Shown piece by piece: positions 27,557-54,980 of a DNA stretch of 64,000 bases. A program made the position numbers and the translations under genes. The notes under the pieces are model-generated. The model saw nothing but the letters and a program-made list of their open reading frames with translations, was not told where the DNA came from and searched no databases. Source of the stretch: Fragilaria crotonensis. Lineage: Eukaryota > Bacillariophyta > Fragilariophyceae > Fragilariales > Fragilariaceae. The stretch is taken from contig JAKSYS010000173.1 in assembly GCA_022925895.1 (NCBI GenBank), positions 32,126-96,125 of the forward strand, given 5' to 3'. How positions within the stretch are numbered: position 1 is the first letter of the stretch; the number at the start of each line of letters is the position of its first letter.

Positions 27557-28442
27557 TTGTGTTTTGCCTGTTGGATTCCTTGTTATTATGCATACCATAG
27601 AAATGATTGTATTGTTGTTGTCACGTCCAAACAGAAGCAACGTGATCCCAACTTGGAAGCTGTCTTTTGTCGCAACCCCTTTTGCACTCGAGGAATGCAC
27701 AAAGCATTTGCTACAGAGTCCGCGTTTCAAAAGCATTTGGCCATGCTTCTGCAATGCAAAACCTTTTTGATGAACCAACATGCTGGACAACGGTCCCATC
27801 ATCATACAAATTCAGCAACGCAACAAATGCCGAGTTTTTCTAACAATGTAATTATTGCGACAAGCAACAAACGCAAGTTTTTGCTACGTCGCGATGTGGT
27901 GAATGAGACACGTCCCGAGTTTTTGGTGAACCCGAGCACTGTGGTTGTTGTGCCTGAGTATATGCTACAAGAAGCATCTGAAACAGCTACAGAAGATTGT
28001 GATGTGGGAGATATGGATTCCGATGATGACTCATTTGACAATGATGCCAATGTGTGTTGGGAGGATTTTTGTTTAGTCGCACAAGGTCCATCTGTGTTGT
28101 TCACCCATCAAGTGGACAGTGGATTTGCTGAAAGTGATTGACAATATAAATGCCCCTGATTATGCATTTGGTGACATTTTGGCTTGGGCTCGTGGTGCAA
28201 ATGCTGCAAAGTACTCATTTAATCCTGTGGGTGGTTTATCAAGATCCAAGAATATTGATGTTCTTTTTGACTCAATGCCAAATGCTTGCCAGTTGCTGCC
28301 TTCAATTGTTCCTGTCTTATGTGCTGAAGGCTTGGTCAGTGATGTAGTTGTGTTTGACTTTGTTCCGCAGCTACTAAGCCAATTGCAAAACCCAACAATT
28401 ATGCAACAAGAGAACTTAATCATTGATGTGAACTGCCCCTAA
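27557..28442 (+). pseudogene. CACTA/KDZ-like transposase copy D1, N-terminal fragment
   Basis: Two overlapping frames (27557-28141 and 28119-28442) align with the N-terminal part of copy D2. Shared features: a C-x4-C...H...C finger near the start (CRNPFCTRGMHKAFATESAF then HLAMLLQC), an acidic linker, and the block DLLKVIDNINAPDYAFGDIL, which matches ELLKILEDAQCPDYMLHKVL in D2. The copy is cut at 28437 by a terminal module of the type seen seven more times to the right. The catalytic part is absent. The apparent stop TAA at 28440-28442 is the target duplication of a MITE, not an original stop. Confidence 0.65.
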
Positions 28443-29092
28443 GAGCAAGTCTTATCATAGGGTTAAATTTTTGACATTTTAACCCCTGGGGTCTAAATTT
28501 TAGATCCTCCACGTCGAACGAAAAAAAGCAAGTCTTATCATTTTTAACTTCATAACTCAAACCCTTTTGAAGAACAGTATGGTAAAATCAAGAATCGAGC
28601 TCCCTTTCTATACTCGTCACTCGTCAACAACGACAACATTGCCGCGGCAAATTTGATTGCCGAAGCAAATCACACCCACAAGAGACTGATGACCATGGGG
28701 TGAGCATTGTGGAAAGACAATGGAACAAAATCAACAGGAGTGCTCACATCTCTGCTCCTGAGAACAATGCGTTGTGGAGGTGACATTGTTGTGTATGCAG
28801 TACTAGTACTAGTCGTATGCATACATGTAGTGATGTGTGACATCCACACCATGCCTTGACGAGCAGAATTTGTGCCGAAAAAAAGGGGATAGTGGTATAT
28901 ACATGGCGTAGGAAACGCGTAGATGATTTGGACCCCGGGGTCAAATTTGCTGAATTTAGACCCGGGATTAAAAAATAGACCCCAGGGGGTCAAATTCAAG
29001 ATCCTAAAAAATGACTTATACCCTCCCACAAGACTTGCTTTTTTGATTTTTTTCGATTCGGGACTCACTTAACCCCAAGATAAGACATGCTC
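28443..29092. mobile_element. 650-bp MITE with TAA duplication (PIF/Harbinger type)
   Basis: Inverted repeats of 24 bp with three mismatches start GAGCAAGTCTTATC on the left and GAGCATGTCTTATC on the reversed right end. TAA flanks both sides (28440-28442 and 29093-29095). Removing the element and one TAA restores an uninterrupted terminal module (CCCTAAGGGGGCGGGG). The interior carries repeated GGGGTC(A/T)AA-like words in both halves. The 3-bp TAA duplication fits PIF/Harbinger. No coding capacity. Confidence 0.85.
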
Positions 29093-29262
29093 TAAGGGGG
29101 CGGGGTTCAAACTTGATAAATTTTCCTCAGATATAAATATTTTTACTTGATACCACAGGAGCTATTTTATTTAGAGAAAAATACCACAGGAGCCAAATTT
29201 GTGCCATCGGAGCCGCTTTTCAAATAACAACATATACCAGAGGAGCCACAGGTCACCCCCGT
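29092..29262 (+). repeat. Terminal module T1 (first bases at 28437-28442, split by the MITE)
   Basis: After removal of the MITE it reads CCCTAAGGGGGCGGGGTTC, then the shared AT-rich core (GATAAATTTTCCTC, TTTTTACTTGATA). Four or five subterminal copies follow, close to ACCACAGGAGCC (29149, 29182 and on). Confidence 0.8.
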
Positions 29263-29962
29263 AAGCTCCAGTATGTTCCATTTCTCCCAACTAATTACAT
29301 TTGCTTATTAATTTGTTGAGCCTTTCAATTCGGTTGCTTGTTTGTTCATTCCTTTGTTCACCGCGCAACGATGTCGTTCATTCGTTCGCTGTCGTTCATT
29401 GGTTTGCGACGAGGACACTTCACCTGGCAATGAGCGAGGGCAACACTAAACGTTTGTTCAATCGTTTGTTCATTCGTTCGTACATCTTGCGACGACAGCG
29501 ACACAACACGTGATTGACAACGCGACAAGCGACACTAGACGCTAGCAAAGGCAACGTAAAATTCACAACTATAAAGTTCATAGCAACTCTACGTTGAATA
29601 TGACAGCAACACTAGACATCATGGTCAAAGGAATCCCTACGACGCTAGTAAACCTTCGGATGATGACAACACAAGCAAGGAAAATGACACGAGATGTTAG
29701 CAATGATGACCATGTTCCTTTATTCATCAGCACTACTCGTCTTTCGTCTTCCACTGCAAATTGCTAGTCATCATTCAATCCCTGCTTGTCATCAACATTC
29801 CTTGCTTCATTCATTGCTTGGTTTGTTGGCAAGTTCGCAACTTCATTGCTAATTGACAGACAGGCATATGTGTTCGAACTGCGTCAACATCGCTACATCT
29901 AAATGAAAGGCTATTCGGAGAGCTTTGTAACACGATATTGGTGTGGCTCAGACAAATTCCAC
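29263..29962. other. Non-coding interior after T1
   Basis: No gene. It has loose repeats of GTTCATTCGTT and CGACGA words but no regular tandem array. Confidence 0.4.
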
Positions 29963-30160
29963 CCCTAAGGGGGCGGGGTTCCAATTAGATAAAAATTCCT
30001 CAATTATAAATATATTTAGTACATACATTGGGAGCCATTTTATTTAGGGATTTGTACGTCGGGAGCCAATTTTCATACCTTGGGATTCAATATTTAACGA
30101 AAGATTTTTACGTTGGGAGCTTTGACATCAGGGAGGCCAAATCTCTGGCTTGTACTTCAT
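29963..30160 (+). repeat. Terminal module T2, 5' end of element D2
   Basis: CCCTAAGGGGGCGGGGTTC, the AT-rich core, then about four copies of GTACGTCGGGAGCC / TTACGTTGGGAGC. It lies about 370 bp upstream of the transposase frame, as expected for an element terminus and leader. Confidence 0.8.
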
Positions 30161-30532
30161 CTGGTGGGTTTTAATCACATATTCCATCAATTTCTACTTA
30201 TTTCTGAGAAATGTTTGCTTTATTGTAAATATATATGAATAACAAAACACATTTCTCCTATTTATTGGCAATGTATGATTTTCAGATATTTGTAGCTTTG
30301 TTGTAGATATTGTTTTACAATAATGACTCTTTGTGCATTATTCAATGGTAATTTATCTTGAATTCTCTGTAATGGGTCACCACCGGGCCAATGATCACTC
30401 ATGCTCAAGTTCCAAGGATGCCCGCGCAATTTTCTTCACACGCCAGACTCAGGATTATGTTGCCTATGTCTCGCGCCAAAATTTGTTGCAGTATGCATCT
30501 TATGTTGTGAATTCAGAAAATAGACCTCAAAG

Positions 30533-33478
30533 TTGCACCATCAGGCATTGTTGACAATTGTCATGTTTGATTGCTTTAACATCAATTGCTATGCTAGATT
30601 TAATTCTGAGCGCGGACTGCGTATGCACCTTTGGCGGAGTTCACCCTGTAAGGATTACATGGAAAGGCAGCAGTCAGGAACTCGGGCAAGCGTGGATGGT
30701 TGCCCCGAAATTGTTTCGACAGTGCGACGTCCCTGTTATGGTGTAGAATCAACCTGCCTGAATCCAGGAATGGACACTAATCCTCCCACGCACATGCCAT
30801 TTGAAGAATTTGACTATGGAACAACTGGCTATGATGACGGCAATGATGATGATGATGACAATGAAAATGACAAGAATGAAATGTGTTTTAACGCCCAGCA
30901 GTTAGATCAACTTCCAATAACAACGACACTCTTTCCTGGAATTGACAATACTGCATCTCCTGCAGTTGTCCATGCATTGATGGAACGCATTCGTGCAAAT
31001 GAGAGGCATGCAGTGATGGTTTTGCAACATGATGTTGAACATCGATGCATTGTTGAACTTTTGAAGATTCTGGAGGACGCCCAGTGTCCTGACTACATGC
31101 TGCACAAAGTTTTAATGTGGGCTTACAATGCAAAGTCTAGCGGCTTTGACTTCAAGCCAAAAGCTATGTCCAGGAAAGCGAACATCCGATGGATGTATCA
31201 GGCTTTGCAACATTCACACCACCATCTCCCCAGGTGATCTCCATTGCCCTTGAAGATTGTGACAAACCTCAAGAGATTGCTTGCTTTGACTTTGCTCCCA
31301 TCCTTTGTCGTTGCTACAGGATGAAGACTTGATGGCACCAGAAAATCTTGTGCTTAACCACGAGGATCCCACGTCAATGTACCTCCCACGCAACAACAAA
31401 ATTGGTGAGGCACACACTGGAAGCCGCTACCGTGAGCTCTATCATGAACTTATCACTCGAAAGTATCAGCTACTTGTCCCTATCATCATCCTCTATATTG
31501 ATGGGACTGCCATTGACAGCAAGGGGCATGGTGAAGTGTGTCCTGTGTCCTTCACGACATCTCTCTTTAGTGAGAAGCTCAGGAGAAAGAGCACATCCTG
31601 GCGAGTACTAGGCTATGTTCCCGACTTGAAGTGCGGACGATCATCCGCCGCAATGAACTCTCAAGCCAATAACGCACAGTCCAAAGGACGCACCACACGT
31701 AATTTTCATGCAGTGATGGACGTAATTTTGAATGGCATGTCAAAGGCACAAGCTGGAAATGATTGTCATTTGAGGAATGTTCCTTTGAAACTTGGCGGTC
31801 AGTGGGTGGTTGTTGATATTGTTTGTCCACTGCTTTCTGTGATTAATGATGGTAAGCAAGGCGATCAACTTTGCTGCCGTACAAACAGTCACCATAGAAG
31901 TACACCGCGTCACCATCGGTCCTGTGATTGTGTTTTTGACAATCTTGACAATCCAAATGTTGAGTGTTCTTTTCTTCGCATGGATTATGTCAATGATGCA
32001 TGTCGCAATGGGACAGACAATTTTCTTCAGCAGCTCTCGATGTACAGGGTTGACAATGCCTTCAACCGTGTCCAGATGGGACTGAATCCTCATGGCATCT
32101 TCATGTGTGCTGTCATCAATGTCATGCATACTGTACAGCATGGTGTCATCATGTATGTATTGAGTCATTCAAGACTTTTCTTGGCGCCGAGATCTTGGCA
32201 ATCCTTGATGACATGGCACTTAAATTTGATGTCACATGCCTCCAAACTATTTGTCAAGATTTTCCTCGAACTGATTTCGCACGCGGCATCACCAACCTAA
32301 CACTTATTGAGTGCTCGGAACAATCAGGTACTTTGTTCCTTTTTGCTGCACTGACTATGCAGGCTGAGGTATGGCATGCCATCTCAAGGTCCATCCCCGA
32401 TCTTCCGGCAGTCCTGGGTACAAGCAATGGAATGCCTTCTGTGCTTCGAGGCATGGCTGGATGCTGATACCTATTGGGACGCTTTAGGAGGAGATAAAGT
32501 TGGGGAGGCAGCCTTGGCAGAAAATGCAATTACACGGCTCATGTCTCTTATTCTGAAGTACCTCCCACAAGATGCTGGTAATGGCTGGAAGGTGTCAAAA
32601 TTCCACGAATTGAAACACATCGTCCGTTTCATTTCTACGTTTGGAGCACCTCGTGGTTACAATGCCTCACGACCCGAGGAACATCACAAGGCCCACGCAA
32701 AGCGCCCTGCTCGTCGTTCACAAAAGTGCATTCAGACGATAGACCAGCAGTGCGCACGGAGAATTGCCGACACATTAGTCATAGACACAATGCACGGCGT
32801 GTTTGCAGAAGAATTCCGTGAAAAACGCTCCCTCAACACATCACGTCCACTAGCAACGAATGAAGAAGGTCGTGGCACTCGCTATCACATCCGATGCTTC
32901 CGTGATCCCAATCAGAACAATCGTTTGGTTCGTGAAGTTGTTTTCATAATGGAAACAAGGGAACCCATCCACCTCGAACCAAATCTTGCACTTTTCATGG
33001 TGCAATCGTACAGTGAAACTGACTTGGATGAGAATGGGGAGGGTACAATAGAGTGTAGCACTGAATACACAAAGTACAAAGTTGATTCAGAAGAGAAGTG
33101 CATTTCCATTCGAGCCCATCCAAATTTTCGAGGTGATGGATATCCCTGGTATCTGATTGGGCATTGATTCGGTTTGAAGACAATCAAGGAAATTTGGATG
33201 ACTTCCCATGTTGTATTGTCAGTTGTATTCACCGACGTGGACATCCCCAGGAGGATAAGTCATTCGACCTCGTGGTCCAATCTTGCAATCAGCCCACTGG
33301 TCGCGAGTCCCTATTGTTCACTGAGTGGACCTTTGACCAAAAATTCTACATTGTTTCCAGCACTGCACTTGTTTCTTCGTGTTATGTACTTGTCGATGGT
33401 TGCGAGCTTACGGACACAGTTTTTGTCGTGAAGGATAAGGAGGAGTGGGCATCTCTGTTTTACAAATCTGTGTGGTGA
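30533..33478 (+). pseudogene. CACTA/KDZ-like (Plavaka-type) transposase D2, frameshifted
   Basis: About 980 codons in consecutive frames (30533-31237, 31230-31320, 31305-32150, 32105-32390, 32376-33167, 33164-33478). The N-terminus has a C-x4-C-x12-H-x5-C finger. The middle has YLPRNNKIGEAHTGSRYREL and IILYIDGTAIDSKGHGEV, with a likely first catalytic Asp in YIDGT, then SWRVLGYVPDL. The C-terminal half has KFHELKHIVRFISTFGAP and SRPEEHHKAHAKRPAR, which resemble the end of Plavaka/KDZ and Tnp2-like transposases. The family call is by recalled motif layout, not a search. It would cut and paste the element. Frameshifts may be decay or sequence error. Terminal module T2 lies upstream and a convergent oxygenase gene downstream. 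Confidence 0.58.
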
Positions 33479-33519
33479 TCCGCATTCTTCAACTAGTATA
33501 GTATGTATCAATTAGTACC

Positions 33520-35768: not shown

Positions 35769-35778
35769 TTGTTGTGCA

Positions 35779-35920
35779 CCTAAAGGGGCGGTCGGATTTC
35801 TATATAAAATAACTTCGGGGATGTATTTTTTACTTGATACATTGGGTGGGAATTTAATAGGGGAAAACTTGCATCAGGTGTGTCTTTTTCAGCATTGGGT
35901 GGTACCATTAGATACGCAAC
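35779..35920 (+). repeat. Terminal module T3 (diverged)
   Basis: CCTAAAGGGGCGG, an AT-rich core with TTTTTTACTTGATAC, then CATTGGGTGG / GCATCAGGTG-like subterminal words (35860, 35873, 35894). It is the most diverged of the eight. No core gene follows it. Confidence 0.65.
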
Positions 35921-35989
35921 CTCTTCATCGGGTACAGAGCTCCGCCGTAGGGGTCCCTATTTGTCGTCATCACTTCACCGAGTACAGTA

Positions 35990-36262
35990 TTTAGTCTGGT
36001 GCAGACTATTGTGCAACATGCCATTTTTTGACCCCAAACATAAATTAGTCTGGATAGTAGGCCAATTTGCAAATATTGGCGCACAAATACCAGAGGGATC
36101 AGGAAACACATCTACGATTCGTCTTATCAGCGATCCAGAAGCCACATGAAAGAATCCGAATTTTCCTGATGCCCTTTTGGCAAAGATAAGTTTCAAACAT
36201 ATATTAGTCTGGACCACAGTATTTTGGAATCCAGACTATTTGCCCATCCAGACTATGTATAC
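35990..36262. mobile_element. Possible short element with repeated TAGTCTGG at both ends
   Basis: TAGTCTGG occurs directly at about 35993, 36047 and 36206, and inverted (CCAGACTA) at about 36231 and 36252. The clustering of inverted copies suggests a small palindromic or MITE-like unit. No target duplication was identified. Confidence 0.35.
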
Positions 36263-37264
36263 TGTACTCGGTGTTCCGACAATCGACGAGTTTTGAAAGA
36301 CCGCTCTTGTGCCCTCATTCCGTGATGAGTTCTTGTACTCGCAGTACCTGTACTGTTTGTACTGGTGTTCGCAGATTGCCCGCCTAATACACACAGGTAA
36401 GGAAATTCATTTGCATATATCTATATTCATTTAAACCGTAACAGATAATTTTGCTCGCAACAAGGGACTATAGTGGACGCTGGCCGTCTACACGTGGCCT
36501 TGCATGCCGCATGTTGTACGCGATGTACTACATTCATATGTACTGTATATACATATAAGTGTATAACTGAAAGGAGCAGCCATCATCAGTGTCCAGAATC
36601 AAGACGTGGATCTCCTGGAAGGTCCGGCCAAAACAAGTTCTAGCCGTTAAGCTGCGTTACCGGAGTAATTTCCACGAACGCTGGCTTCCCAAAACGTCTG
36701 TTGCGATATTTGTAGCTGGAACGGTTGATCCAAACGAGCCGGCAAGGTATTCTTATGCTAAGTGGAATTCCACTTACAAGAAATGTCTTCATACTGATCT
36801 GCGTAGGCGACACGTGTCTCTTTCGGATTGTGAGTAAGTGAAATTCCACTTACCGTAAGTGGAATTCCACTTACGGAAAGTGAAATTTCACTTACCGTAA
36901 GTGGAATTTCACTTACCGTAAGTGGAATTCACTTACGGTAAGTGGAATTTCACTGAATAGGATCCACATGATAAGCGCGCCGGCCTTGCTTTTTTCTGTT
37001 GAAAACGACACAGCGTGGGAACGATACTCTTACTATGATGTGTCACGTGTTCTCTGATTTTTCCACGATTCCGACGGTGCAGCCGGACCTTCCTGGACAA
37101 CTCCCGCGCGCATCTTTTTAATGATGCTTTGCCTGGGTTCTGGGTTGGTGCTGGGTATCTGCTGGCACTTCGACTTTTGCAGAGCCTATTATACTACTTG
37201 TATGCATTTATGCACAACCCACCCCTCGTTGAATGCATAAGTTTTCTCTTTTCGACGAAGAAGG
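36263..37264. other. Intergenic; includes a palindromic repeat array; otherwise nothing recognised
   Basis: A weak frame at 36589-36837 has no recognisable motif and runs into the palindromic array. The segment 36960-37264 is the likely promoter and 5' UTR of the ankyrin gene. Confidence 0.4.
36755..36955. repeat. Palindromic array of AAGTGGAATTCCACTT type
   Basis: A single copy TAAGTGGAATTCCACTTA sits at 36759-36777. A cluster at 36834-36955 alternates GTAAGTGGAATTCCACTTAC-like palindromes with CCGTAAGTG spacers. The strand can fold into several competing hairpins. Confidence 0.85.
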
Positions 37265-38521
37265 ATGCCGTTGAGTAAGAAGGACTCTGATTTGATCAAC
37301 AATGCTAAGGATGGCAACCTCAGCAAGGTTCGTGACCTGTTACGAGCGGGAGCCAATGTGAATGCTCAGAAAAGTAATGGCGAGACAGCACTATACTTGG
37401 CGTGCTACAATCGCCATGCAGATGTCGCCCTTGAAATCTTGAAACAAGGCAATGTCGATGTGAATGCTCAGAATAGTGAAGGCGACACAGCCCTACACTG
37501 GGCGTGCTGCAGCGAGAGCCTTTCAGATGTCGCCCATGAAATATTGAAACGAGACTATGTCGATGTGAATGCCAAGGATAGGGATGGTCAAACAGCCCTC
37601 TACTGTGCGTGCGAGAACAACCTTTCAGATGTGGCCCTTGAAATCTTGAGACGAAACAATTTCGATGTGAATGCCAAGGATGTTTATTGCCACACAGCCC
37701 TTATCCATGCGTGCCGCGAGGGCCTTTCTGATGTCGCCCTTGAAATCTTGAAACGAGACCATGTTGATGTGAATGCCAAGGATGATTATTTTGGCTACAC
37801 AGCCCTTATCTGGGCCAGCCGCAATTGCGATGCAGATGTCGCCCTTGAAATCTTGAAACAAGACGATGTCGATGTAAATGCCAAGGATAGTGAAGGTCAG
37901 TCAGCCCTACACTGGGCGTGCTGTGGGGGCGATTTGGACGTCGTCCTCGTGTTGCTCCAGCACAGCACGGTGGATGTGAATGCCAAGGATGATGATGGCG
38001 CAACAGCTCTCATGGATGCGTGTCTGCGAGGCCATATGGAAGTTGTCCTCGCGTTGCTCCAGCACAACACGGTGGATGTGAATGCCAAGGATGATGATGG
38101 TGCAACAGCTCTCATGAAGGCGAGTACACGGGGACGCTTGGACGTCGTACTGGCGTTACTCCAGCACAGCACAGTCAATGTAAATGCCAAGGATTATAAA
38201 GGCCGTACTGCATTTTATTGGGCGAGCCACAGAGGCTGTTGGGACGTAGTTTTCGAGTTGTTGACACGCGACGGGGTGGATCCGAATGTCAACGGAGCAC
38301 AAGGAAACACAGCCCTTATCTGGGCGTGCCTGAGGGCTGAGGTGGACGTTGTTCGCGAGTTGTTGAAATGCGACAAGGTCGATGCGAATCAAAGAAATAA
38401 AGCAGGCTCGACAGCTCTTGATATTTCTCGAAATTGTCAACTTGTCGAAATTACTAGTTACCTGGGGGAACATGATGCGCAGTATAGGATGCGATGTGGA
38501 ATAAAAAGGAAGCAGTTTTGA
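37265..38521 (+). CDS. Ankyrin-repeat protein, intact, 418 residues
   Basis: A single uninterrupted frame from the ATG at 37265 (MPLSKKDSDLINNAK). About eleven to twelve ankyrin repeats of 33-34 residues fill residues 10-400, each with the TALxxA turn and the VDVNAKD loop that precedes the next repeat. There is no signal peptide, membrane segment or extra domain, and a short basic tail (IKRKQF). Ankyrin stacks mediate protein-protein contacts; the partner is unknown. Repeats are similar at DNA level (about 102 bp period), so unit number may vary between alleles. It is one of the few genes here without a frameshift, so it may be a live host gene. Confidence 0.88.
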   Translation: MPLSKKDSDLINNAKDGNLSKVRDLLRAGANVNAQKSNGETALYLACYNRHADVALEILKQGNVDVNAQNSEGDTALHWACCSESLSDVAHEILKRDYVDVNAKDRDGQTALYCACENNLSDVALEILRRNNFDVNAKDVYCHTALIHACREGLSDVALEILKRDHVDVNAKDDYFGYTALIWASRNCDADVALEILKQDDVDVNAKDSEGQSALHWACCGGDLDVVLVLLQHSTVDVNAKDDDGATALMDACLRGHMEVVLALLQHNTVDVNAKDDDGATALMKASTRGRLDVVLALLQHSTVNVNAKDYKGRTAFYWASHRGCWDVVFELLTRDGVDPNVNGAQGNTALIWACLRAEVDVVRELLKCDKVDANQRNKAGSTALDISRNCQLVEITSYLGEHDAQYRMRCGIKRKQF

Positions 38522-41415: not shown

Positions 41416-41515
41416 CCCTAAGGGGGCGGGCGTAAATATAGATAATATTTCCTCGAGTATGTATGTTTTTATTAGATAGGTCGGGAGGGCTTCGTTGCAC
41501 GTCCGGAGGTTTGTC
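41416..41515 (+). repeat. Terminal module T4, 5' end of H2
   Basis: CCCTAAGGGGGCGGGCG, an AT-rich core with TTTTTATTAGATA, then GGTCGGGAGGG and CACGTCCGGAGG. Closest to T6. Confidence 0.8.
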
Positions 41516-41529
41516 AGAGCATGGTTTAA

Positions 41530-43298
41530 GGCAGACAGCATTTTTTAGTCAAATGACGCAATCATGACGAAAAATTGATGTTCTTCATAACGGTTCAAAC
41601 TGTATGCTTCCTGCCTCCTCAGCCGGCTGACTCGTTCCGAAATTTTTGAGTTGCAAGATTTAAGGCAATCTTGTATCGCAACTCAAATGTTATTATTTTT
41701 GTGATCTTCCCACCAAAAATCACTCATGTATGGCTCTTCTGAGAAGGCGGCTCTTCTGTTCTTATTGATCACATCTACACTCCTTCCTGTTCTGTATGAA
41801 TACTTTTTGCAACAACAGGAGAGGAAGAAGAAGAGGAACATCAGTGCTATTGAAGAATCTCTTGTTTCGGTGGCCGAAATGGCCCTTCAAGTTCGACGAC
41901 AACTGGACAATCAAGAAATGGAGGGAGGAGGCGATAGGAGGAAGCGTCGGAGGAGGTCTCATTTCAGACATGAACGTGCGGAACAGGCTGTATACGAGGA
42001 CTACTTTGCACCAACTCCTATCTTTAATGACAGACAATTTGAACGAATCTACAGGGTAAGCAAGTCAATCGTGCAACAGCTGTTTGACATCTGTGCTCGA
42101 ACCGATCCATTCTTTACTGCCCAACGCGACGTTAGTGGAAGGTTCAATATTGGACCACTTGTGAAGGTCCTGATGGCTTTGAAGCTAATTGGCTTTGGTT
42201 GCTCGCCAAGTGCATTCCAAGATTACTTTCAAATGAGTGTCACAACGGCACGCCTTTGCCTTCTGAAGTTCTGTCGTATCATTTCAACAGATGAATCATT
42301 ACGAAGTGTTTTTGCGAGAGTCATGACGCGTGCAGATGCAAGGAGAGTCTGTGCCATTCATGAAGAAAATCATGGCGTCGCAGGAATGATTGGAAGTCTG
42401 GATTGTATGCACGTATTTTGGAAGAATTGCCCCGTGGCCTGGCAAGGATCTCAGACCGGAAAGGCAGGTAAGCCAACCATTGTACTCGAAGCATTCGCCG
42501 ATCACAACTTGTGGTTTTGGCACCACTCCTTTGGGTGGCCGGGATCACTTAACGACATCAACATCTGGAATCGGAGTTGTCTCTTGAAAGCCTTTCTTGA
42601 TGGTTCATTTGCTGCAAATGTTGATTTCGAGTATGCCATCGGTGATAAAGTATTCCAACGCCTTTGGCTTGCAGTTGATGGGATTTATCCCGAGCTGTCA
42701 AGGTTCGTCAAAACAATTGAAGAGCCTGTGAATCGAAAATCAATTGTATTTGCAAAGTGGCAAGAAGCTACAAGAAAGGATATTGAGCGAGCATTTGGGG
42801 TTTTGCAGCGTAAGTTTCAGGTCCTTGTAAGAAAGATCGAGCTCTGGTATGTTGGTGACATTGGTGCTCTTGTGAACACCGCCATTATACTCCACAACAT
42901 GATGGTGGCACAAAGGATTGACAACGATGAGACCGAATGTGAGTCATTCTAAGCTTTTGCAAATTTAGATGCGGAAAACGACAAAGCACAACAAGATTGC
43001 AACAACGAACAAGAGCAACAAGATGTCGATCGTAGGATTGCGGAGATTGATTTACACCGCCGCCTTTATGAAACGACTAACACTGAACGAGAAGAGCTTA
43101 CGAATCAACAGAAGGCAGTACTTGATTCGCTTCGATTGCAGTATGCTCAGAGGCGAGGGCAGTGCTTGTATGATCGGACCGAACACCACCGATTGAGAGA
43201 TGCCTGTATCGAACAAATTGCTACTAGTAGCTCGTAGCATTTAATGGTTGAGTTAGCAATCGCAATTGTTGTTGTAACATCAGAATGTGCTGTCTGCC
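41530..43298 (+). mobile_element. PIF/Harbinger element inside the H2 leader
   Basis: An 11-bp inverted repeat, GGCAGACAGCA (41530-41540) and its complement (43288-43298), encloses a PIF-type transposase gene. Flanking TAA and TGA could be a mutated TWA duplication. The H2 leader resumes to the right, confirming insertion. Outer borders are uncertain by a few tens of bases. Confidence 0.65.
41726..43237 (+). CDS. PIF/Harbinger transposase (Plant_tran/DDE_Tnp_4 type) with one in-frame stop
   Basis: Starts at the ATG at 41726. Residues 1-95 include a hydrophobic start and a basic region (RRKRRRRSHFRHERAEQA). The catalytic domain shows GSLDCMHVFWKNCP (first Asp), WPGSLNDINIWNRS (second Asp) and KDIERAFGVLQRKFQ (catalytic Glu), followed by NTAIILHNMMV; this is the DDE layout of PIF transposases. 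A TAA at 42950-42952 ends the first 408 codons, but the same frame stays open for 94 more codons to 43235, with a coiled-coil-like tail (LHRRLYETTNTEREEL). So the protein was about 500 residues and carries a late nonsense change, or the stop is read through. The catalytic domain lies before the stop. Confidence 0.85.
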
Positions 43299-43507
43299 TG
43301 ATCCTCGTAGTTTGCTTTAATAAGAAGGCGGATTTGTTAGTAATGATTCCTACGACGGAAATTCAAAATTGTACTTCGGGAGTTACGGATCAACTCCGTA
43401 GGATTCAGTACTGAAAATCACGCGCCAGTTTTCCAGATTTGTTTTATTTGAATAATCAACGCACAAGCAACATCACCTTTCACCACTAACAATAAATCAC
43501 CATTGTC

Positions 43508-43815
43508 ATGCTTCCATGCAAAGCTCAACAAAAGGCAAGGCCCATCACCCTCAGACCTGATGGTGTTGGTGCCACTCTTGAAGATCTTCCTCCCGCAGTT
43601 TTTCCACTTCAGTGTGTTCAAGATCTTTTTACATTCTCTCCTTTTGGTCTTAGCTGCCGTCAGTGCGAGAAGCAGGTGCAGATTAAATTTGATGAAAGAT
43701 GTAACAGAGATCATCTGAAAAAGCATTGCATGGACAGTAGAATGTCTACAGTGCGTTCTTTATTGCTCGGATTTAGAAAACGAGTTAACGTTATCAAGGC
43801 AACGGGCAATATTGA
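43508..43815 (+). pseudogene. Helicase H2, N-terminal zinc-finger segment
   Basis: ATG at 43508. It carries LFTFSPFGLSCRQC and DHLKKHCMDSRMSTVRSLL, matching the first zinc finger of H3, and stops being homologous after GNIDP at 43815, exactly where terminal module T5 begins. A further ~145 residues present in H3 are missing before coding resumes at about 44106. Confidence 0.75.
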
Positions 43816-44105
43816 CCCTAAGGAAAAGGGGTTCGAACTGGATAAAAAATCCTCAAGTATAGATGCTTTTACTTGATACGTCCGGAGTGGTGAATTTACG
43901 TCCGGAGGGGGAATTTTGACGTCCGGAGGGATATTTTACTTAGGAATTATCACGTCCGGAGGAGAATCACTCCCCATGCGGAGACAACATCACGTATGTA
44001 AAACATGGTATTGTTAGAATGTTTTCGTACACCAAATTTGGAGCTGTGCACTCCAAACACCGATGTCAGTGCTGCTTTCATGTCCACTGTTTGCCTCATT
44101 TTGTT
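43816..44105 (+). repeat. Terminal module T5 and short flank inside the H2 coding region
   Basis: CCCTAAGGAAAAGGGGTTCG, the AT-rich core, then five copies of ACGTCCGGAGG/GG (43898, 43914, 43930, 43960). Helicase coding follows within about 150 bp, so this is a short derivative insertion without a gene. Confidence 0.75.
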
Positions 44106-45464
44106 TGAAGATCTGTTGTGCAAGTGCCTACCACTGTTCTCAACATCCATGGTTTCAGTATTCCAGTGGTTAAACTTCATCAGCTTGTTGAAGTCTGGCT
44201 TCTGAACTATGCTCAGAAGAATATCAAAATGGTGCCTGGTGATCTTCGTGCTGCTTTGCAAACATTTGAAGGTGGTGAAATTGAAGATGTGTCACAACAA
44301 TGCACATATGCCATGCAACACGATCCATCTACTTTACTATTTGAACTCAAAAAGCTTTTATCATATTCATTCCGACGAGGTCTGTTTGCCAACAAGCAAT
44401 TCAATCACCAAGACGGATTTTCAATTGCATACTTTCTGAAGGATTTGATGCTCGAAATACCACCTTCAGTGCAACATCATCCATTGGCAGTTGAATTCTG
44501 TTTAATGTCGGGATTCCGTGACCAAAAAGAGGATTCCAAAATCAAAATGATCTCGTGTGACACTGTTTCCTCGCTCATTGCAAAGGTAACATCCATTTTG
44601 AAAGCTGGTATTTGTTCCGCTATATGTTCGTTTTCAGAAGACGCTTTCACGTTACATGGTCCCGCTCTCAACACCACAGTACGAAAATCGCATGTCATCC
44701 ATTCTCTGTCACCAATCCTCCGTCAAATTCGTGAAATGCACCGCAGACTCCCCAAAAGGAGGAAGACGACACTCGATGAAAAGGGGAACATCGTCGATGA
44801 TCAGTTTTCTTTTCTGTTTGATGTTTGGTCGCAAATTGTACCAAAGACAGTGTATTTGATGAGGGTGGCAATTTCAAAATTAGCAGAGGGAACTTGGTGG
44901 GAACCGGTAGTCAATGTTCTGAGCAATATAAAGGTCCACGTTGATTGTGACACAGGTGACCTCTTTCTTGCGGATGTGAGTCCCGTGTGGAAACAAGGTT
45001 CCCTTTTTTCTCTGGATTGTTTTGACCACTTTACGACACTTTTAGAAATGTCTTTCCACGGTTTTGGTGGTGGTTCCGCAAGGTTGAATGAGCTCCGTGA
45101 TCCGACAATGTTCCACTGTCTCTACACAAACGGTACGGTCTATTACACACTTTCTTCATTGAAAGGGTTCAATAGCGCATCACGACGCACTTGCAAGGAA
45201 TTTGAGCGCAAGCTACCCCCAGTTATCTCCAGATACTTTTTGTTGTTTCGATCTCTGATCCAAACGAAAGCAAGCAGTATATTATGCAGCAACACCAGTG
45301 ACAACAATCAGAATCTCATATTCCCGACAAGGATTGATCGTTCCGTCATTCAACCATCACATATCATCCGAGACATTTTTTCCTTATCGGCGATTCCGAA
45401 CATGACACAAGTACGGCACTTTTGGGCTGGTGTATCTAACTTTGTGACACGTGGTGGCCACCAA
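44106..45464 (+). pseudogene. Helicase H2, middle segment
   Basis: An open frame of about 450 codons aligned with H3 residues from about 255 (LVEVWLLNYAQKNIKMVPG) to RHFWAGVSNFVT. There is no internal frameshift, but there is no start codon, and the helicase motor is absent because T6 interrupts it at 45465. Conserved blocks: LQTFEGGEIEDVSQQCTYAM, EMHRRLPKRRKTTLDEKG and MSFHGFGGGSARLNELRDP. These belong to the long region between the zinc fingers and the motor; function unknown. Confidence 0.75.
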
Positions 45465-45593
45465 CCTAAGGGGGCCGGCTTTTATGTCAATAAAATATCA
45501 TAAGGTATGGATACTTTTATTAGATACGTCGTGAGTGATTTTTGTACGTCGGGAGGGACATTTTTGTACGTCGAGAGGGATCCCCCAGTAATG
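45465..45593 (+). repeat. Terminal module T6, 5' end of H3
   Basis: CCTAAGGGGGCCGGC, an AT-rich core with ACTTTTATTAGATA, then TACGTCGTGAG, GTACGTCGGGAGGG and GTACGTCGAGAGGG; a further copy lies at about 45618. It interrupts the H2 coding region. Confidence 0.8.
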
Positions 45594-45747
45594 ATTCCTA
45601 CGTTGGACGCTCGATTTTGTACGTCGGGAGTTACGATCGATCCACGTAGAATTCGGTACTATCGAAATTGGCGCGGCCCCCGACTGACTTTATTTCACAG
45701 GCACACAAACAACACGGCTCATCCATAACAAACTCATCATTCCCATC

Positions 45748-48700
45748 ATGCCATCATCAAGCACTCCTCCAACACAAATGGTTAACGGAAGTATCAGTCC
45801 TGTTGTTTCCGTCCGTCTTCCGGTGCAAAGCACCGAGATCAACCCCCTTGATCCTATTCGAGAACTTTTCACTTTCTCACCATTCGGCCTTTGCTGCCGT
45901 CAATGCAATGCTCACAACAAGATTAACATGGAAGAGAGATCCATCCGCGATCACCTTAAAAAACATCACATGGACAGTAGAATGTCTACAGTCCGTTCCG
46001 TGTTGAACGAATTTACTAAAAGAGTACTCGTTGCGAAGGAATCCTGCACCATAGAGCCGTACCGTAGTGACAAAAAAACTTATACAGGATATTCCTGCAC
46101 TTGCGGTTCCGTCTTTCCGAGGAAAGATAATGCTCTTCGACATTGCAAAAATATGGGTTGCAATGAGTTGCAGCTGCAGAAAGTTGAACTCATCAAACTC
46201 TGCTGTGGTCGCTACATATCAGAAACTCAAGTTTGCTTGTTTTTCGAGGAGAGACCAGCTCGCATCACACAGCAGTTTGATTATTGTGAAGCGAGAGGTG
46301 TTCTACAACCCTTTCTTCTGCAGAGAGAGAAACATGATCATACATACACTCATATGTACACCCCTCTTATAACCCAATGCGGTGGCGCAATGCATTTTGC
46401 AATGAAAATTGAAAACAACTTTACAGCCATCCATTCCCCACCAGATTCACTCAATGAGTCTATGTTGATAAAGATCCACGAGCTTGCCGAAATTTGGCTC
46501 CTGAACTTTGCCCAAATGAACATCATGATGGTCCCAGGCAATCTCCGTGCAGGATTACAAACATTTGAAGGTGGAGAAGTCGATGATGTGTCACAACGCT
46601 GCACTTACGCGATGCAACATGATCCATCAACTTTATTTATTGAACTCAAGAAGCTCTTATCTTTTGCATACCGACGAGGCCTTTTCGTCGCCAAACCTTT
46701 GAACCACCAAGATGCATTTTCAATCCCATACTTTTTGAAGGATCTGATGCTTGAAATCCCATTGTCAGTCCAATATCATCCCCTAGCCGTTGAGTTCTGC
46801 TTGATGTCAGGATTCCGTGTTCAAAAGGCAGGTTCCAAAATCAAAATGATCTCATGCGACACTGTTTCCTCTGTTATTGCAAAGGTAGCATCAGTCTTGA
46901 AAGCTGCAATTTGTTCAGTTATATGCTCATTCTCAGAAGACACTTTCACGATACACGGTCCCGCACTTATCACAGCAGTACGAAAATCTCACGTTCTCCA
47001 TAGTCTGTCACCGATGCTCCGTCAAATTCGCGAAATGCACCGTCGACTACCCAAACGGAGGAAAACAACACTCGATGAAACTGGAAACATTGTGGTAGAT
47101 CAGTTTTTGTTTCTTTTTGACGACTGGTCCAAAATTATTCCTAAGACTGTGCTCTTGATGAAGGTTGCGGTTTCAAATTTGGCAGATGGGATCTGGTGGG
47201 AGCCTGTGGTTGATGTTCTTACTGATATAAATGTTCACGCGGATCGTGACACGGGTGACCTTTTTCTAGCAGATGTGAGCCCCGTGTGGAAACAAGGTTC
47301 TCTTTTTCCAATGGATCATTTTGACCATTTCATGGCACTTTTAAAAATGTCTTTCCACGGTTTCGGCGGGGGCTCTGCTCGGTTGAACGAGCTTCGTGAA
47401 CCTACAATGTTCAACTGCCTCTTCACAAACAGTACGGTGTATTACACACTGTCTTCCTTGAAAGGTTTCAACAGCTCATCACGACGCACTAGTAAGGAAA
47501 TCGAACGCAAGCTACCACCCGTTATCTCCAGATACTTCCTATTGTTTCGATCTCTGATCCAAACAAAAGCAAGTATGTTCACCAGCAACAGCAACATTAA
47601 CAATCTCATGTTCCCTACAAGGGCAAATCCTTCTGCCATCCGACCGTCACACATCATCCGAGATCTCTTTTCGCTATCGTCAATTCCAAACATGACACAA
47701 GTTCGACACTTTTGGGCTGGTCTTTCTAACTTCGTGACCGGTGGTCACGACAAGCCCAACCACTTTTTGTCGTCGAATTCCATGGGAGCTTCCAAAATGG
47801 GTCATTCTTCATCAACTCATTCCTTTGCCTACTCCAGCCAGCAAGTCGGTTCAGAAGAGGCACACTTCAACTCCTATCATTTTGCAATTGGTGACACCTC
47901 GTATCAAATATCCAAATTCACCGAAAGACTTTCCTTGGCAGACCTTCGCAATGCAATGCGACTTCGGTATCCAAGTTTGGTAAGTCCAAGCAATGGTCAC
48001 GGCCACTATTTGTCTGTGCAGCAAAAAGAGTTGGTTGAGTTTGGGTACAGTGCCGAGTTCAACAACAAGCCACAGCATTGCATAGCTCTACTCGCTCCAG
48101 GCGAGGGAAAGTCGGAGACCTATATAATTCCAACTATCGCTCGCAACCTCGCCAACCATAAATCAAAGACAATCATCCACATTTCACCATTTCGATTCTT
48201 GGCTGGGTATCAGTTTGCAATGGCATCCGCGGCGTTCGAGATGCTTTCCCTACAGTCCACCATCTGTGTTTTTTCTGGTGGAGACATCACCTCTGATGGT
48301 GCACTACCAGAAGAACTTCGGGAGAAAGATAGCCTTCCAAGCTTACTTTTCTTGAACCTGGATGCCGTTAACAATTTGTTCAAGTACTTCTCCGAAGTAT
48401 TCAAGTCTTGGGTGGATGTCGTTGATAAAATTGTAATCGACGAAGTCCACACCATACTTTCTGAAATGAGCTTTCGCGACAAATATAGGGTTTATTCAGA
48501 ACTCCCAAGTCTGGGTATTCCCATTGTTGTCATGAGTGGCTCGCTTCCAACTTTTGCCGTTAAAAGATTTGCTAAGCAACTTGGATTATCGAGAACCCAC
48601 GACCTCAGTGATGTCAAACTTATCCTCGGGAGTCATGTTGTCGGTGGGTTCCCACAGGGGTTCGAAATCAAAGTGTCAATTACTTCGCGATATACATATG

Positions 48701-49470
48701 TTGCTGCTCACTTTGTCAAAACAAAATTGGAATCTGGAAGTGGACTTGCTGCTGTTCACGTTGTTGTTGCAGAAAGAAGCAAGGATGGGACTTTCCTATT
48801 GGATCACTTATTCCCTAGGTTCAACTGCAAATTTGTTTCCTCCGACTCCTCACAAGAAGAAGTCAATCAAATTGCCGCAGAATGGAGCAAAGGACAGTTG
48901 GATGTCCTCATATCAACCACAATGGGATTGGTCGGCAATGAAAATCCTTCCTGCAGATATTTGGTTTGTGTTGGCTATCTGTATGACTCCATGCAGATCG
49001 TCCAGTTCTTAGGTCGCTTGAGGAACAGCATGCGAATGAACTTCGGCCAAGTGCTATTTGCCGTACCTGACAACCTTTCTAATCACCGCATCATCGATGA
49101 CAATCTCAGGTATACAAGGCTCCTGAACGAAGGATTCATATCAGCACAAGATCACGCCAACTTCACAGCTGTCATGACATCATCGGGTGTTCGCGATTGG
49201 CTTTCCAATGCTTCCCAAGGTCATTGCGGTTGTGCAGTGCAAATTTTGTCAACCATGTTTGGAAGAGAAGCGACCGAAACTTGTGGAGCCTGCCCCTTCT
49301 GCCGCAGCATTCCACTGACAACTCTCCAAACCGAAGCAACCGGACGTATTCAATTGGCGAAGGAGAACGAAAACGCCTCACAACGCGTACTTTCGAAACT
49401 CGCATTTGCCTGTCCAGTATGTGGAGACCCCATGTCGAGGGATACCTCTCCTCAAGGGACCTGGAAGTAA
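45748..49470 (+). CDS. Zinc-finger RecQ-like SF2 helicase H3, intact 1240-codon frame
   Basis: N-terminus: C2H2-like finger 1 (C50, C53, H69, H74) in SPFGLCCRQC...RDHLKKHH, and finger 2 (C117, C119, H132, C138). Such paired fingers recall OrsD-type N-termini fused to RecQ helicases in fungi. A region of about 600 residues of unknown fold follows. Motor: LAPGEGKSE (Walker A, near 783), FSGGDITSDG, VIDEVHTIL (DExH, near 897; H4 has DEAH), VMSGSLPTF (motif III, near 930), ISTTMGLVG and QFLGRLRN (motif VI, near 1086, with Asn for the usual last Arg). A Cys cluster (CGCAVQI...CGACPFC) resembles the RecQ zinc region. It would be a 3'-5' DNA helicase. Finger 2 is lost in H2. The frame ends in CPVCGDP, and a +1 frame continues. 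Confidence 0.85.
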   Translation: MPSSSTPPTQMVNGSISPVVSVRLPVQSTEINPLDPIRELFTFSPFGLCCRQCNAHNKINMEERSIRDHLKKHHMDSRMSTVRSVLNEFTKRVLVAKESCTIEPYRSDKKTYTGYSCTCGSVFPRKDNALRHCKNMGCNELQLQKVELIKLCCGRYISETQVCLFFEERPARITQQFDYCEARGVLQPFLLQREKHDHTYTHMYTPLITQCGGAMHFAMKIENNFTAIHSPPDSLNESMLIKIHELAEIWLLNFAQMNIMMVPGNLRAGLQTFEGGEVDDVSQRCTYAMQHDPSTLFIELKKLLSFAYRRGLFVAKPLNHQDAFSIPYFLKDLMLEIPLSVQYHPLAVEFCLMSGFRVQKAGSKIKMISCDTVSSVIAKVASVLKAAICSVICSFSEDTFTIHGPALITAVRKSHVLHSLSPMLRQIREMHRRLPKRRKTTLDETGNIVVDQFLFLFDDWSKIIPKTVLLMKVAVSNLADGIWWEPVVDVLTDINVHADRDTGDLFLADVSPVWKQGSLFPMDHFDHFMALLKMSFHGFGGGSARLNELREPTMFNCLFTNSTVYYTLSSLKGFNSSSRRTSKEIERKLPPVISRYFLLFRSLIQTKASMFTSNSNINNLMFPTRANPSAIRPSHIIRDLFSLSSIPNMTQVRHFWAGLSNFVTGGHDKPNHFLSSNSMGASKMGHSSSTHSFAYSSQQVGSEEAHFNSYHFAIGDTSYQISKFTERLSLADLRNAMRLRYPSLVSPSNGHGHYLSVQQKELVEFGYSAEFNNKPQHCIALLAPGEGKSETYIIPTIARNLANHKSKTIIHISPFRFLAGYQFAMASAAFEMLSLQSTICVFSGGDITSDGALPEELREKDSLPSLLFLNLDAVNNLFKYFSEVFKSWVDVVDKIVIDEVHTILSEMSFRDKYRVYSELPSLGIPIVVMSGSLPTFAVKRFAKQLGLSRTHDLSDVKLILGSHVVGGFPQGFEIKVSITSRYTYVAAHFVKTKLESGSGLAAVHVVVAERSKDGTFLLDHLFPRFNCKFVSSDSSQEEVNQIAAEWSKGQLDVLISTTMGLVGNENPSCRYLVCVGYLYDSMQIVQFLGRLRNSMRMNFGQVLFAVPDNLSNHRIIDDNLRYTRLLNEGFISAQDHANFTAVMTSSGVRDWLSNASQGHCGCAVQILSTMFGREATETCGACPFCRSIPLTTLQTEATGRIQLAKENENASQRVLSKLAFACPVCGDPMSRDTSPQGTWK

Positions 49471-49816
49471 GTCTTTGCCCGAAAATAAACATGTTTGTTT
49501 TCAATGGAAAATGTGCTACGCGTGTGGTGTGGGTACACATGATCGCAAGCTTTGCCCCTTTAAAAAGGATTACATCAATATCCGAGCCTGTTGCGAGTGC
49601 TGGGTTATGAAAGGTGCAGGAGGTTCCGCAAAGCACGAGATCAGCAGCTGCCCCGTGAAAGGCCGATTGCGCAGGTTACTTTCACACGATTTCGTACGCT
49701 CAAAATCGCAGGGAACCTTTCAATCGTACATCGAACAAATTTACACCTCCCGGGAATCTTTCTGTCGGTTCTTGACCTCCCAGGAGACGGCATTAAAAAC
49801 ACCAACGCATTATTAG
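49406..49816 (+). CDS. Zinc-knuckle C-terminal frame of H3, +1 relative to the helicase
   Basis: Overlaps the helicase frame by about 65 nt and lies in its +1 frame. It encodes GPGSKSLPENKHVCFQWK, then CYACGVGTHDRKLCPF (C-x2-C-x4-H-x4-C zinc knuckle), CCECW, and a SSCPVKGRLRRLLSH block with an alpha-helical tail. The same frame in the same relative phase follows helicase H4, with strong conservation. It is either the C-terminal domain of the helicase reached by +1 frameshifting, or a separately translated protein. Zinc knuckles bind single-stranded nucleic acids. Confidence 0.7.
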   Translation: MPVQYVETPCRGIPLLKGPGSKSLPENKHVCFQWKMCYACGVGTHDRKLCPFKKDYINIRACCECWVMKGAGGSAKHEISSCPVKGRLRRLLSHDFVRSKSQGTFQSYIEQIYTSRESFCRFLTSQETALKTPTHY

Positions 49817-49972
49817 ATGTTTCGTGCCATTCCATCTATGCGCTCGACTCCCTTGACTTAAACTCCAATCAGCATTACAATAATTCGTTTTATGATTTTC
49901 ACGACTTATCGCTGCACTTTTTTGTGTGTTCACTTCCGAAAACACCGGGTGCCGATCGACTTCAGGCGTACT

Positions 49973-50145
49973 CCCTAAGGAAAAGGGGTTCAAAGTAGAT
50001 AAAAAATCCTCAAGTATATACATATTTTTACTTGAGGCCTCCGGAGCAACTTTATTTAGAGAATTTAGCTCCGGAGCCAATTTTGAACCTCCGGAGCTGC
50101 CTGTTTATTTAAGGAAATGTGCATTCGGAGCTACACAGGGAGGCA
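49973..50145 (+). repeat. Terminal module T7
   Basis: CCCTAAGGAAAAGGGGTTC, the AT-rich core, then four to five copies of GCCTCCGGAGC / AGCTCCGGAGCC. Closest to T5 in its first 40 bases. No gene follows before the minisatellite. Confidence 0.8.
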
Positions 50146-50332
50146 CAGAGCTCATCGTGTGTTATTTTCTGGTAATAACTTCTTGCGTAGCCACTTTTCC
50201 ACCAAAAAAGTGGAGTATGACATCCAGTAAATCTAAATACGTACAGTGTCATACCGCTGTAACGTACAATACTGTAGTTTTTAAACGAAATACAGTTGAT
50301 TCATCATACTGTTGTCTGCATTTGTCACATAC
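50146..50332. other. Short interior after T7, nothing recognised
   Basis: No gene or repeat. Confidence 0.4.
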
Positions 50333-50741
50333 AAGTACCCACTAGTAAAAGTACCTACTAGTACAAGTACTCACTAGTCAAGTACCTACTAGTACAAGTA
50401 CTACTAGTACAAGGTCTACTAGTACAAGTACATACTAGTACAAGTACCACTAGTACAAGTACCACTAGTACAAGCACCTACTAGTACAAGTACCTACAGT
50501 ACAAGCACATACTAGTACAAGTGTTACATACAAGTACCACTAGTACAAGTACCTACTAGTACAAGTACCTACTAGTACAAGCAAATCTACTAGCAAGTAC
50601 CTACTAGTACAAGTACCTACTAGTACAAGTACCTACTTAGTACAAGTACCTACTAGTACAAGTACCTACTAGTACAAGTACCTACTAGTACAAGTACCTA
50701 CTAGTACAAGTACTCTGCTAGTACGAGTACCTACTAGTGTA
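50333..50741. repeat. 16-bp minisatellite, CTACTAGTACAAGTAC
   Basis: About 25 copies, regular toward the right and degenerate toward the left, with the palindromes ACTAGT and GTAC in every unit. It ends 5 bp before terminal module T8. Confidence 0.93.
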
Positions 50742-50745
50742 AAAA

Positions 50746-50905
50746 CCCTAAGGGGCGGGGTTCAAACTAGATAAATTTTCCTCAAATATGTATATTTTTA
50801 CTTGATACATCAGGAGCCATTTTACTTAGGCAAATTTGCATCGGAGCCATTTTTCTGCATCAAGAGCCACTGATTACTTAAGGAAATATGCATTGGGAGC
50901 TACGG
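50746..50905 (+). repeat. Terminal module T8, 5' end of H4
   Basis: CCCTAAGGGGCGGGGTTC, the AT-rich core with TTTTTACTTGATA, then ACATCAGGAGCC, GCATCGGAGCC, GCATCAAGAGCC and GCATTGGGAGC. Closest to T1. Confidence 0.82.
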
Positions 50906-53900: not shown

Positions 53901-54634
53901 CTATCAGGTCCACGTTGTGCTGCTCACGTTGTTGTTGCCGAGAAGAAGGATGGCAGGACTTTATTCGAGCAGCTTTCCACCACCCGGTATAAATGCAAGT
54001 TTGTTTCTTCTGATTCCACTCACAAGGAAGTGAAAGAAACCGCCAAGCATGGAGCAATGGAAAGTTAGACATCCTCATATCAACAACCATGGGCTTGGTC
54101 GGCAATGAAAATCCATACTGCAGATATTTGGTTTGCGTAGGATATCTGTATGATTCCATGCAGATTGTGCAAGCGTTCGGTCGATTGCGAAACTACATGC
54201 GAACCTCTTTTGGTCAAGTGTTATTCGCGGTTCCCGACAAATTGTCCAATAACCGAACTAAGGATGATGAACATCGCTACACTCGGCTTTTGAATGAGAA
54301 CTTTATTTCTTCAAAAGACCATTGCAACTTCAAAGCGGTTATGACATCGAGTGGAGTTCATGATTGGTTATCTGACACCTCCCAAGGACAGAGGGGTTGT
54401 GCGATCAAGATTTTGTCGGCTTCGTTTGGGAGAGAAACGTTAGACAATTGTGGAGCCTGCCACTTTTGTCGCAACATTCCGTTGATGAGTCTCCAAAGCG
54501 AGGCAACCAACCGCATTCATCAAGTCCGAAAGGATGAATGTGCCTCGCGACGCGTCTTACTCCAATTGTCATCGGCCTGTCTTGTGTGTGGAAACCCACG
54601 TGTCGAGGAATACCTCTCTGAGAGGACCAGGTAG
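50984..54634 (+). pseudogene. Zinc-finger RecQ-like helicase H4, frameshifted
   Basis: Homologous to H3 throughout but broken into about six frames (breaks near 51520, 52430, 52700, 52980, 53640 and 54065). Finger 1 is SPFGLGCRQC...IHLKKHG, with the last His changed; finger 2 is FSCVCGQSF...HCKTVGC. Motor motifs: LAPGEGKSE, VIDEAHTIL, MLSGSMPTF, ISTTMGLVG and QAFGRLRN. The Cys cluster CGACHFC and the terminal CLVCGNP are retained. All conserved elements remain across frames. Recent decay or sequencing indels could both explain the pattern. Start chosen at 50984 by alignment with the H3 and H2 starts. Confidence 0.78.
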
Positions 54635-54980
54635 CAAGTCCTTGCCAGAGAACCAACAAGTTTGTTTCCAATGGAAAATGTGTTACGCATGTGGTGTGAG
54701 TACACATGATCGCAAGCTTTGTCCCTTTAAAAGATTATTTGAACAACCGAGCATGCTGCGAGTGTTGGTTTTTAAAGGCGCTGCCGGTTCCACGAAGCAC
54801 GAAAGCAACAGCTGCCCAGTTAAGGGCAGACTGCGACGATTACTGTCGCATACCTTCCTCAAAGCAAAAGTGACAGGTACCTTCCAGGCTTACGTTGAAC
54901 AAATTTACACCTCAGAAGCATCATTTTCCAAGTTTTTGGCCTCACAGGAGACAGCATTTATGACACCTGCGTCCCGGTAG
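54534..54980 (+). CDS. Zinc-knuckle C-terminal frame of H4, +1 relative to the helicase
   Basis: Same position, phase and content as 49406-49816 in H3: GPGSKSLPENQQVCFQWK, CYACGVSTHDRKLCPF, SSCPVKGRLRRLLSH, then FQAYVEQIYTSEASF. It overlaps the last helicase frame by about 100 nt. The CCECW pair of H3 is lost here after a small local frame change. Confidence 0.68.
   Translation: MNVPRDASYSNCHRPVLCVETHVSRNTSLRGPGSKSLPENQQVCFQWKMCYACGVSTHDRKLCPFKRLFEQPSMLRVLVFKGAAGSTKHESNSCPVKGRLRRLLSHTFLKAKVTGTFQAYVEQIYTSEASFSKFLASQETAFMTPASR

Follow-up and report, generated by a model that had tools for sequence, protein, structure and literature searches.

A candidate Crypton-like, helicase-bearing transposon family with one sharply defined end in Fragilaria crotonensis

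What kind of element leaves eight copies of one short module, all pointing the same way, within 22.3 kb of a genome? The question is raised by a stretch of 64,000 nucleotides from Fragilaria crotonensis (assembly GCA_022925895.1, contig JAKSYS010000173.1, positions 32,126 to 96,125 of the forward strand), here called the window, in which several of the modules precede copies of a large helicase gene. We propose that the modules are the left termini of one Crypton-like, helicase-bearing family of DNA transposons, which lacks terminal inverted repeats (TIRs), forms head-to-tail clusters and probably uses a tyrosine recombinase (YR). We put the probability of this reading at roughly 0.55.

A terminal module with a sharp left edge

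A preliminary description of this DNA had listed eight module copies in one orientation, and a profile built from all eight returns exactly those eight from the window; their E values run from 5e-22 to 2e-15, every one lies on the + strand, and the next match has E 1.2. Leave-one-out profiles recover every copy (E 2e-20 to 1e-6), the weakest being 35779 (E 1e-6). The claim that the module is terminal was likewise borne out. In the seven copies compared, the split copy 1 being left out, mean pairwise identity is 0.21-0.28 over the 100 bases upstream of the module and rises from 0.25 at -10..-1 to 0.83 at +1..+10; it is 0.38-0.63 over the rest of the module and falls to 0.30 at +75 to +100. The jump falls on the first base of CCCTAAGG, which places the left edge at (C)CCTAAGG. 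As identity jumps at the first base and the left flanks are unrelated, this is a terminal module with a sharp left edge. Its tips read CCTAAGG or CCTAAAG, and copies 35779 and 45465 lack the third C. Neither the clustering nor the shared orientation is likely by chance, as 0.34% of simulated trials place eight random points within 22.3 kb or less and the placement of all eight copies on one strand has p 0.008.

The copies, the insertions that split two of them and the short words that follow them (with layouts as defined in the next section) are as follows; elements A to E are named by the modules that head them.

28437..28442, + strand: module 1, left piece, CCCTAA including the left copy of the target-site duplication (TSD) of the miniature inverted-repeat transposable element (MITE) that follows
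28443..29092, no strand: MITE within module 1, 650 bp; TIRs GAGCAAGTCTTATC / GATAAGACATGCTC, 13 of 14 bp matching; perfect TSD TAA/TAA
29093..29168, + strand: module 1, right piece; words at 29151, 29182, 29202 and 29235; layout 1
29963..30041, + strand: module 2; words at 30024, 30055, 30076 and 30109; layout 1
35779..35854, + strand: module 3, more diverged than any other; words at 35838, 35870, 35891 and 35924; layout 1, with GGTG in place of GGAG
41416..41493, + strand: module 4, left terminus of element A; array broken off after words at 41477 and 41498
41530..43298, + strand: PIF/Harbinger-type transposon nested in element A; open reading frame (ORF) 41726-42952, Pfam Plant_tran E 4.8e-59; 11-bp TIR GGCAGACAGCA; flanks TAA/TGA
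43339..43815, + strand: resumption of element A; B-like 5' region 43339-43412; word-like sites at 43350 and 43372; ORF start at 43508 with a zinc-finger-like N-terminus; stops exactly at module 5
43816..43891, + strand: module 5, element D; words at 43877, 43897, 43918 and 43951; layout 2
45465..45541, + strand: module 6, left terminus of element B; words at 45525, 45545, 45567, 45599 and 45620; layout 2
49973..50053, + strand: module 7, element E, not followed by a helicase gene; words at 50036, 50066, 50086 and 50120; layout 1
50746..50823, + strand: module 8, left terminus of element C; words at 50806, 50835, 50856 and 50889; layout 1

Nested insertions explain the two oddities in this series, the copies at 28437 and 41416. 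The start first given for copy 1, at 28437, is real, but the copy is not continuous from there, as the MITE follows CCCTAA and the module resumes at 29093. The Plant_tran/DDE_Tnp_4 transposase, which has TIRs of its own, belongs to the insert at 41530-43298 and not to the module family.

A partner of the module in inverted orientation was sought and rejected: there is none among the 21 inverted pairs in 27-53 kb, none in a scan of both strands of the window, and the profile finds no minus-strand match in the window below E 3.4. Within modules 43816 and 49973, at about +35 to +65, there is an inverted pair, TCAAGTA ... TACTTGA, that by eye is perfect in these two and degenerate in the other copies; it could be a dimer site.

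Subterminal words and the helicase gene

Behind each module stands an array of short words, arranged in two ways. In layout 1 (29090, 29963, 35779, 49973 and 50746) the first word lies at about +60 from the module start and the following spacings are 29-32, 20-21 and 33-34. Layout 2 (43816 and 45465) also begins at about +60 and continues with 20, 21-22 and 31-33, plus a further 22 in 45465 (element B). Copy 41416 has a word at +61 and then a spacing of 21, up to its interruption. Of the three to five words per copy counted initially, seven copies have four or five, and 41416 has two before the PIF/Harbinger-type insert. The spacings fit a 10.5-bp helical repeat loosely (resultant 0.77), with a best period of 11.65, and helical phasing is hence not claimed.

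Whether the words are commoner than chance, on which the preliminary description had made its case depend, was checked: words of the YHNGGAG type occur 19 times in the 1147 bp examined behind the modules, where the + strand rate outside them predicts 1.5; these stretches were picked because words had already been seen there. The minus strand of the same 1147 bp has 5. The claim that words are uniform within a copy and different between copies also held, with a mean 13-mer identity of 0.70 within arrays and 0.56 between them, a difference equalled in 0 of 5000 slot-stratified permutations; the word positions were hand-picked from the word scan, and two 13-mers are one base off register, which lowers the within-array figure. 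The result is the same for layout 1 alone (5 arrays, 0/5000) and without 35779 (0/5000), while layout 2 alone (3 arrays) gives 89/5000. The proposed GGAG core is absent from 35779, whose words carry GGTG or GGGTA, a change present in all four of them.

The modules at 41416, 45465 and 50746 head copies of one gene, and that at 43816 precedes a fragment of the same gene. Apart from the N-terminal part in element A listed above, its copies are these.

44166..45464, + strand: middle part of the helicase protein (element D), corresponding to P0001 aa 240-670, 78% identical; cut exactly at module 6
45748..49470, + strand: ORF of element B, encoding P0001, 1240 aa, with a Cys/His N-terminus, YR-like motifs, DEAD and Helicase_C
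51036..54967, + strand: gene of element C, frame-shifted; collinear with B 45863-49803, 70% nucleotide identity

P0001 carries an SF2 helicase (Pfam DEAD E 2.6e-9, Helicase_C E 5e-5). Its N-terminal Cys/His residues are zinc-finger-like, the best Pfam match there (E 0.015) being under the cut-off, and past the stop codon of B the likeness to C shifts frame and extends as far as 49803; the zinc-knuckle-like match in this tail (E 0.014) is also under the cut-off. The full members of the family are B, from 45465 to about 49.8-49.97 kb, and C, from 50746 to about 55.0 kb. The gap between element E and the tip of C (50330-50738) is filled by 26 copies of a 16-bp unit, TACAAGTACCTACTAG.

The stretch of element A before module 5 matches P0001 aa 33-113. 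Module 5 cuts the coding sequence of A and module 6 that of D, each at the module's first base. In its middle region D is closer to B (78% identical) than to C (63%), while the N-terminus of A is equally far from both, so that A and D are not clearly one unit; to judge from these identities, D may be an element separate from A.

Searches for other families gave little. P0001 has no Pfam match to the HUH Rep nuclease and Pif1-type helicase of Helitrons or to a DDE family, and neither P0001 nor the other scanned ORFs match the BED/DDE transposases of hAT elements such as Hermes. No relatives were found with P0001 and A4 in viral contigs, with A4 in genome contigs or with one exact module pattern. 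A gapped tip pattern picked out six stretches in viral contigs, which are not modules (best profile E 0.38; two of the six without a reported match). Rfam gave 0 matches, and there were 0 tRNAs.

The recombinase question and competing explanations

If the family is a transposon, what moves it? By eye, the middle region of P0001 has the motifs of a tyrosine recombinase: R545 (in R545-L-N-E-L), K572, R653-H654 and G-H686-...-Y695. Their spacing is 27/108/33/9, against 24/99/23/9 in Escherichia coli XerD, for which the residues (R148, K172, R247, H270, Y279) were checked. R545, K572 and R653 are conserved in 3/3 copies, and H686 and Y695 in both copies that reach them. A low-confidence hhalign path also brings XerD into register with P0001 at the R, RH and GH..Y motifs. 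These motifs suggest that the region is probably a tyrosine recombinase domain.

Under the proposed reading, one large gene would thus supply an N-terminal Cys/His region, the probable YR domain, the SF2 helicase and, as its tail, a zinc-knuckle-like segment. Most likely a multimeric protein of the element's own would land on the word array and hold the left end, where the YR domain would recombine near the CCTAAGG tip while the helicase opens or processes the element ends. Movement might pass through a circular intermediate, and re-use of CCTAAGG sites would produce the same-way, head-to-tail cluster. CCTAAGG stands on both sides of B (45465 and 49974), the right one being the tip of the next module.

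A number of results weigh against this reading. The right end was not found: among 13 tail and flank stretches compared pairwise on both strands, a single pair exceeded z 4.5 and was unfit as a shared end. Among the catalytic R-H-R-Y residues expected of a Crypton recombinase, the His usually found three residues before Arg II is T650 in P0001; H654 is Q in C. The YR signature, which was written after the sequence had been seen, occurs in 8 of 20000 shuffles of P0001. Three segments of P0001 gave no Pfam YR match up to E 10, and a profile search of the PDB gave none up to E 10. Alignment by hhalign to 37 integrases gave a probability of 0.4%, with a local score of 14.3 that 20 of 150 shuffles equalled and a global score of 1.03, under the shuffle mean of 2.08. 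Two AlphaFold2 models had no usable fold (mean pLDDT 31.1 and 33.6).

Two further candidates for evidence on the ends were set aside. A right end shared by the copies was rejected, as nothing consistent emerged from the comparison, and homology between tip and target at the junctions, judged by eye against sister copies, was weak and was not used. The low-pLDDT models place a helix at R545, a beta hairpin before K572 and a helix at R653, which we take to be a YR-like pattern and to which we give no weight.

The earlier suggestion that the word arrays co-evolve with their own recombinase fared unevenly. In its favor are the terminal module, words that change in concert and an agreement of layout with helicase subfamily among the four coding copies: layout 2 accompanies B (45465), D (43816) and probably A (41416), whose 5' region resembles that of B, and layout 1 accompanies the more diverged C (50746). 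Against it are a YR assignment at the level of motifs and the putative DNA-binding zinc-finger region, which does not sort with word class: identities over 63-70 aa are 61% between A and B, 60% between A and C and 60% between B and C. Among layout-1 copies, between-copy likeness is 0.636 for word cores, 0.558 for spacers and 0.723 for the module; the cores are slightly better kept than the spacers, so the words are not faster evolving, and this is no help to co-evolution. On sequence comparison, co-evolution of words and protein is plausible.

Uniform words could instead arise if each array had lately undergone local duplication or gene conversion, with no part played by selection from a DNA-binding protein that itself changes. 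Across copies, same-slot words are no more alike (0.565) than words in general (0.561), the layouts resemble a duplicated half-array, and zinc-finger identity does not track word class. The layouts are nevertheless kept while the words differ, and long and short spacers alternate, so that simple tandem slippage would have to copy words yet spare the spacers. We regard this explanation as possible but rather unlikely.

The absence of an inverted partner in the window, the same-way cluster, the possible CCTAAGG core flanking B and the truncation of genes at the tip agree with the action of a recombinase joining its left tip to other sites and re-using existing tips. A bolder form of the transposon reading, doubtful as it is, would make the element one-ended: nothing but the left end, made up of tip, module and phased words, would be defined, the recombinase-helicase would join CCTAAGG to loosely matching sites, and the right boundary would be wherever the crossover fell. 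Copies would then pile up in one direction, each cutting its left neighbor at the tip, while the array drifted in concert with the protein to give side-by-side specificities.

Alternatively, ordinary duplication could have dispersed a helicase gene family together with its 5' regulatory region, which would be the module, a promoter plus activator sites. Modules 6 and 8 do sit 200-300 bp 5' of an ORF, and activator sites, too, typically come as arrays of short words. Yet a complete helicase gene is missing behind five of the eight modules, and the abrupt edge with unrelated left flanks and the two modules that cut a sister coding sequence lower this explanation to a poor prospect.

We likewise give little credence to a DDE-type transposon with an accessory helicase, similar to Academ or AcademH, whose right end and transposase have been lost or gone unrecognised. 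A RecQ helicase is reported in Academ transposons in the portion of PMC3627910 used here, and DDE elements such as Hermes typically have subterminal repeats to which zinc fingers bind, as an extract of PMC10368747 describes. The window, in contrast, has no inverted module, P0001 matches no DDE family, and the only DDE transposase that Pfam detects (41726-42952) lies, with TIRs of its own, in an insert within A. TIRs with a target-site duplication, as expected of Academ and other DDE elements, were not found for the module family in the window.

CCCTAA, which the tip reads, is the common telomeric C-strand repeat. That the modules are telomeric relics of telomere-linked helicase units, clustered by telomere fusion or by erosion and repair, is highly improbable even though RecQ-type helicases adjoin telomeres in several fungi (PMC4522978, in part), as there is no CCCTAA array among the 37 tandem-repeat rows of the window, the conserved tip is CCTAAGG, 35779 and 45465 lack the third C, and copies lie inside the genes of other copies.

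Several other features share the window. Behind module 2, broken + strand ORFs with a sequence reminiscent of Plavaka-type (KDZ) transposases occupy 30524-33475; three of them have no Pfam match up to E 1. Between modules 3 and 4 are a 21-bp tandem repeat (36834-36954), whose near-palindromic unit can self-pair in many registers, and an ankyrin-repeat ORF of 418 aa (37265-38521). Farther out are a ZZ zinc-finger ORF with an internal 291-bp tandem duplication (20196-20828) and a 52-bp satellite of about 42 copies that runs to the window end (61816-63999). The Pfam scan also gave a weak DUF6824 match (E 0.013), under the cut-off, which hints at a diatom.

Comparison with known systems

Like P0001, OrsD/TLH-type proteins have an N-terminal Cys/His region; the difference is that the N-terminal segment of P0001 has no Pfam OrsD match up to E 10. 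The subtelomeric RecQ helicase genes of fungi, as presented in part of PMC4522978, are similar in being large repeated genes with a helicase domain. They differ in that the present window has no telomeric CCCTAA array.

Academ elements combine a DDE transposase with TIRs, neither of which was found in the module family. The resemblance lies in a transposon that carries a RecQ-type helicase (PMC3627910, in the portion cited above). With Hermes and other hAT elements the family shares a one-end array of short subterminal repeats; according to the extract of PMC10368747, Hermes zinc-finger domains bind the left-end repeats and not the right, and the zinc fingers of the multimeric protein read them to find that end. 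No TIRs, DDE transposase or 8-bp target duplications like those of hAT elements were found here.

No description of a YR-helicase transposon with phased subterminal words was found in the open-licence literature, which is weak evidence of absence, as subscription literature falls mostly outside that coverage. A further comparison is with Cryptons, which have no TIRs, are bordered by direct repeats of 4 or 6 bp and are presumed to transpose via a circle, according to parts of PMC3212892. Both are eukaryotic DNA elements; here, too, no TIRs were found in the window, a YR is probable, and B may have a short direct repeat at its two ends (CCTAAGG, 45465 and 49974). The differences are that the word "helicase" occurs 0 times in PMC3212892, that the parts of that paper drawn on here describe no phased subterminal array, and that most termini of CryptonS, the group from stramenopiles, are given there as TATGG, against CCTAAGG in the present family. 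Eukaryotes have few YR transposons, and it is difficult to define where these end. With a sharp left end that can be profiled, a helicase on the same polypeptide as the probable recombinase and several word classes within 22 kb, this family would offer a system in which to test joint change of specificity in an end and its protein, and whether one fixed end suffices for a transposon to function.

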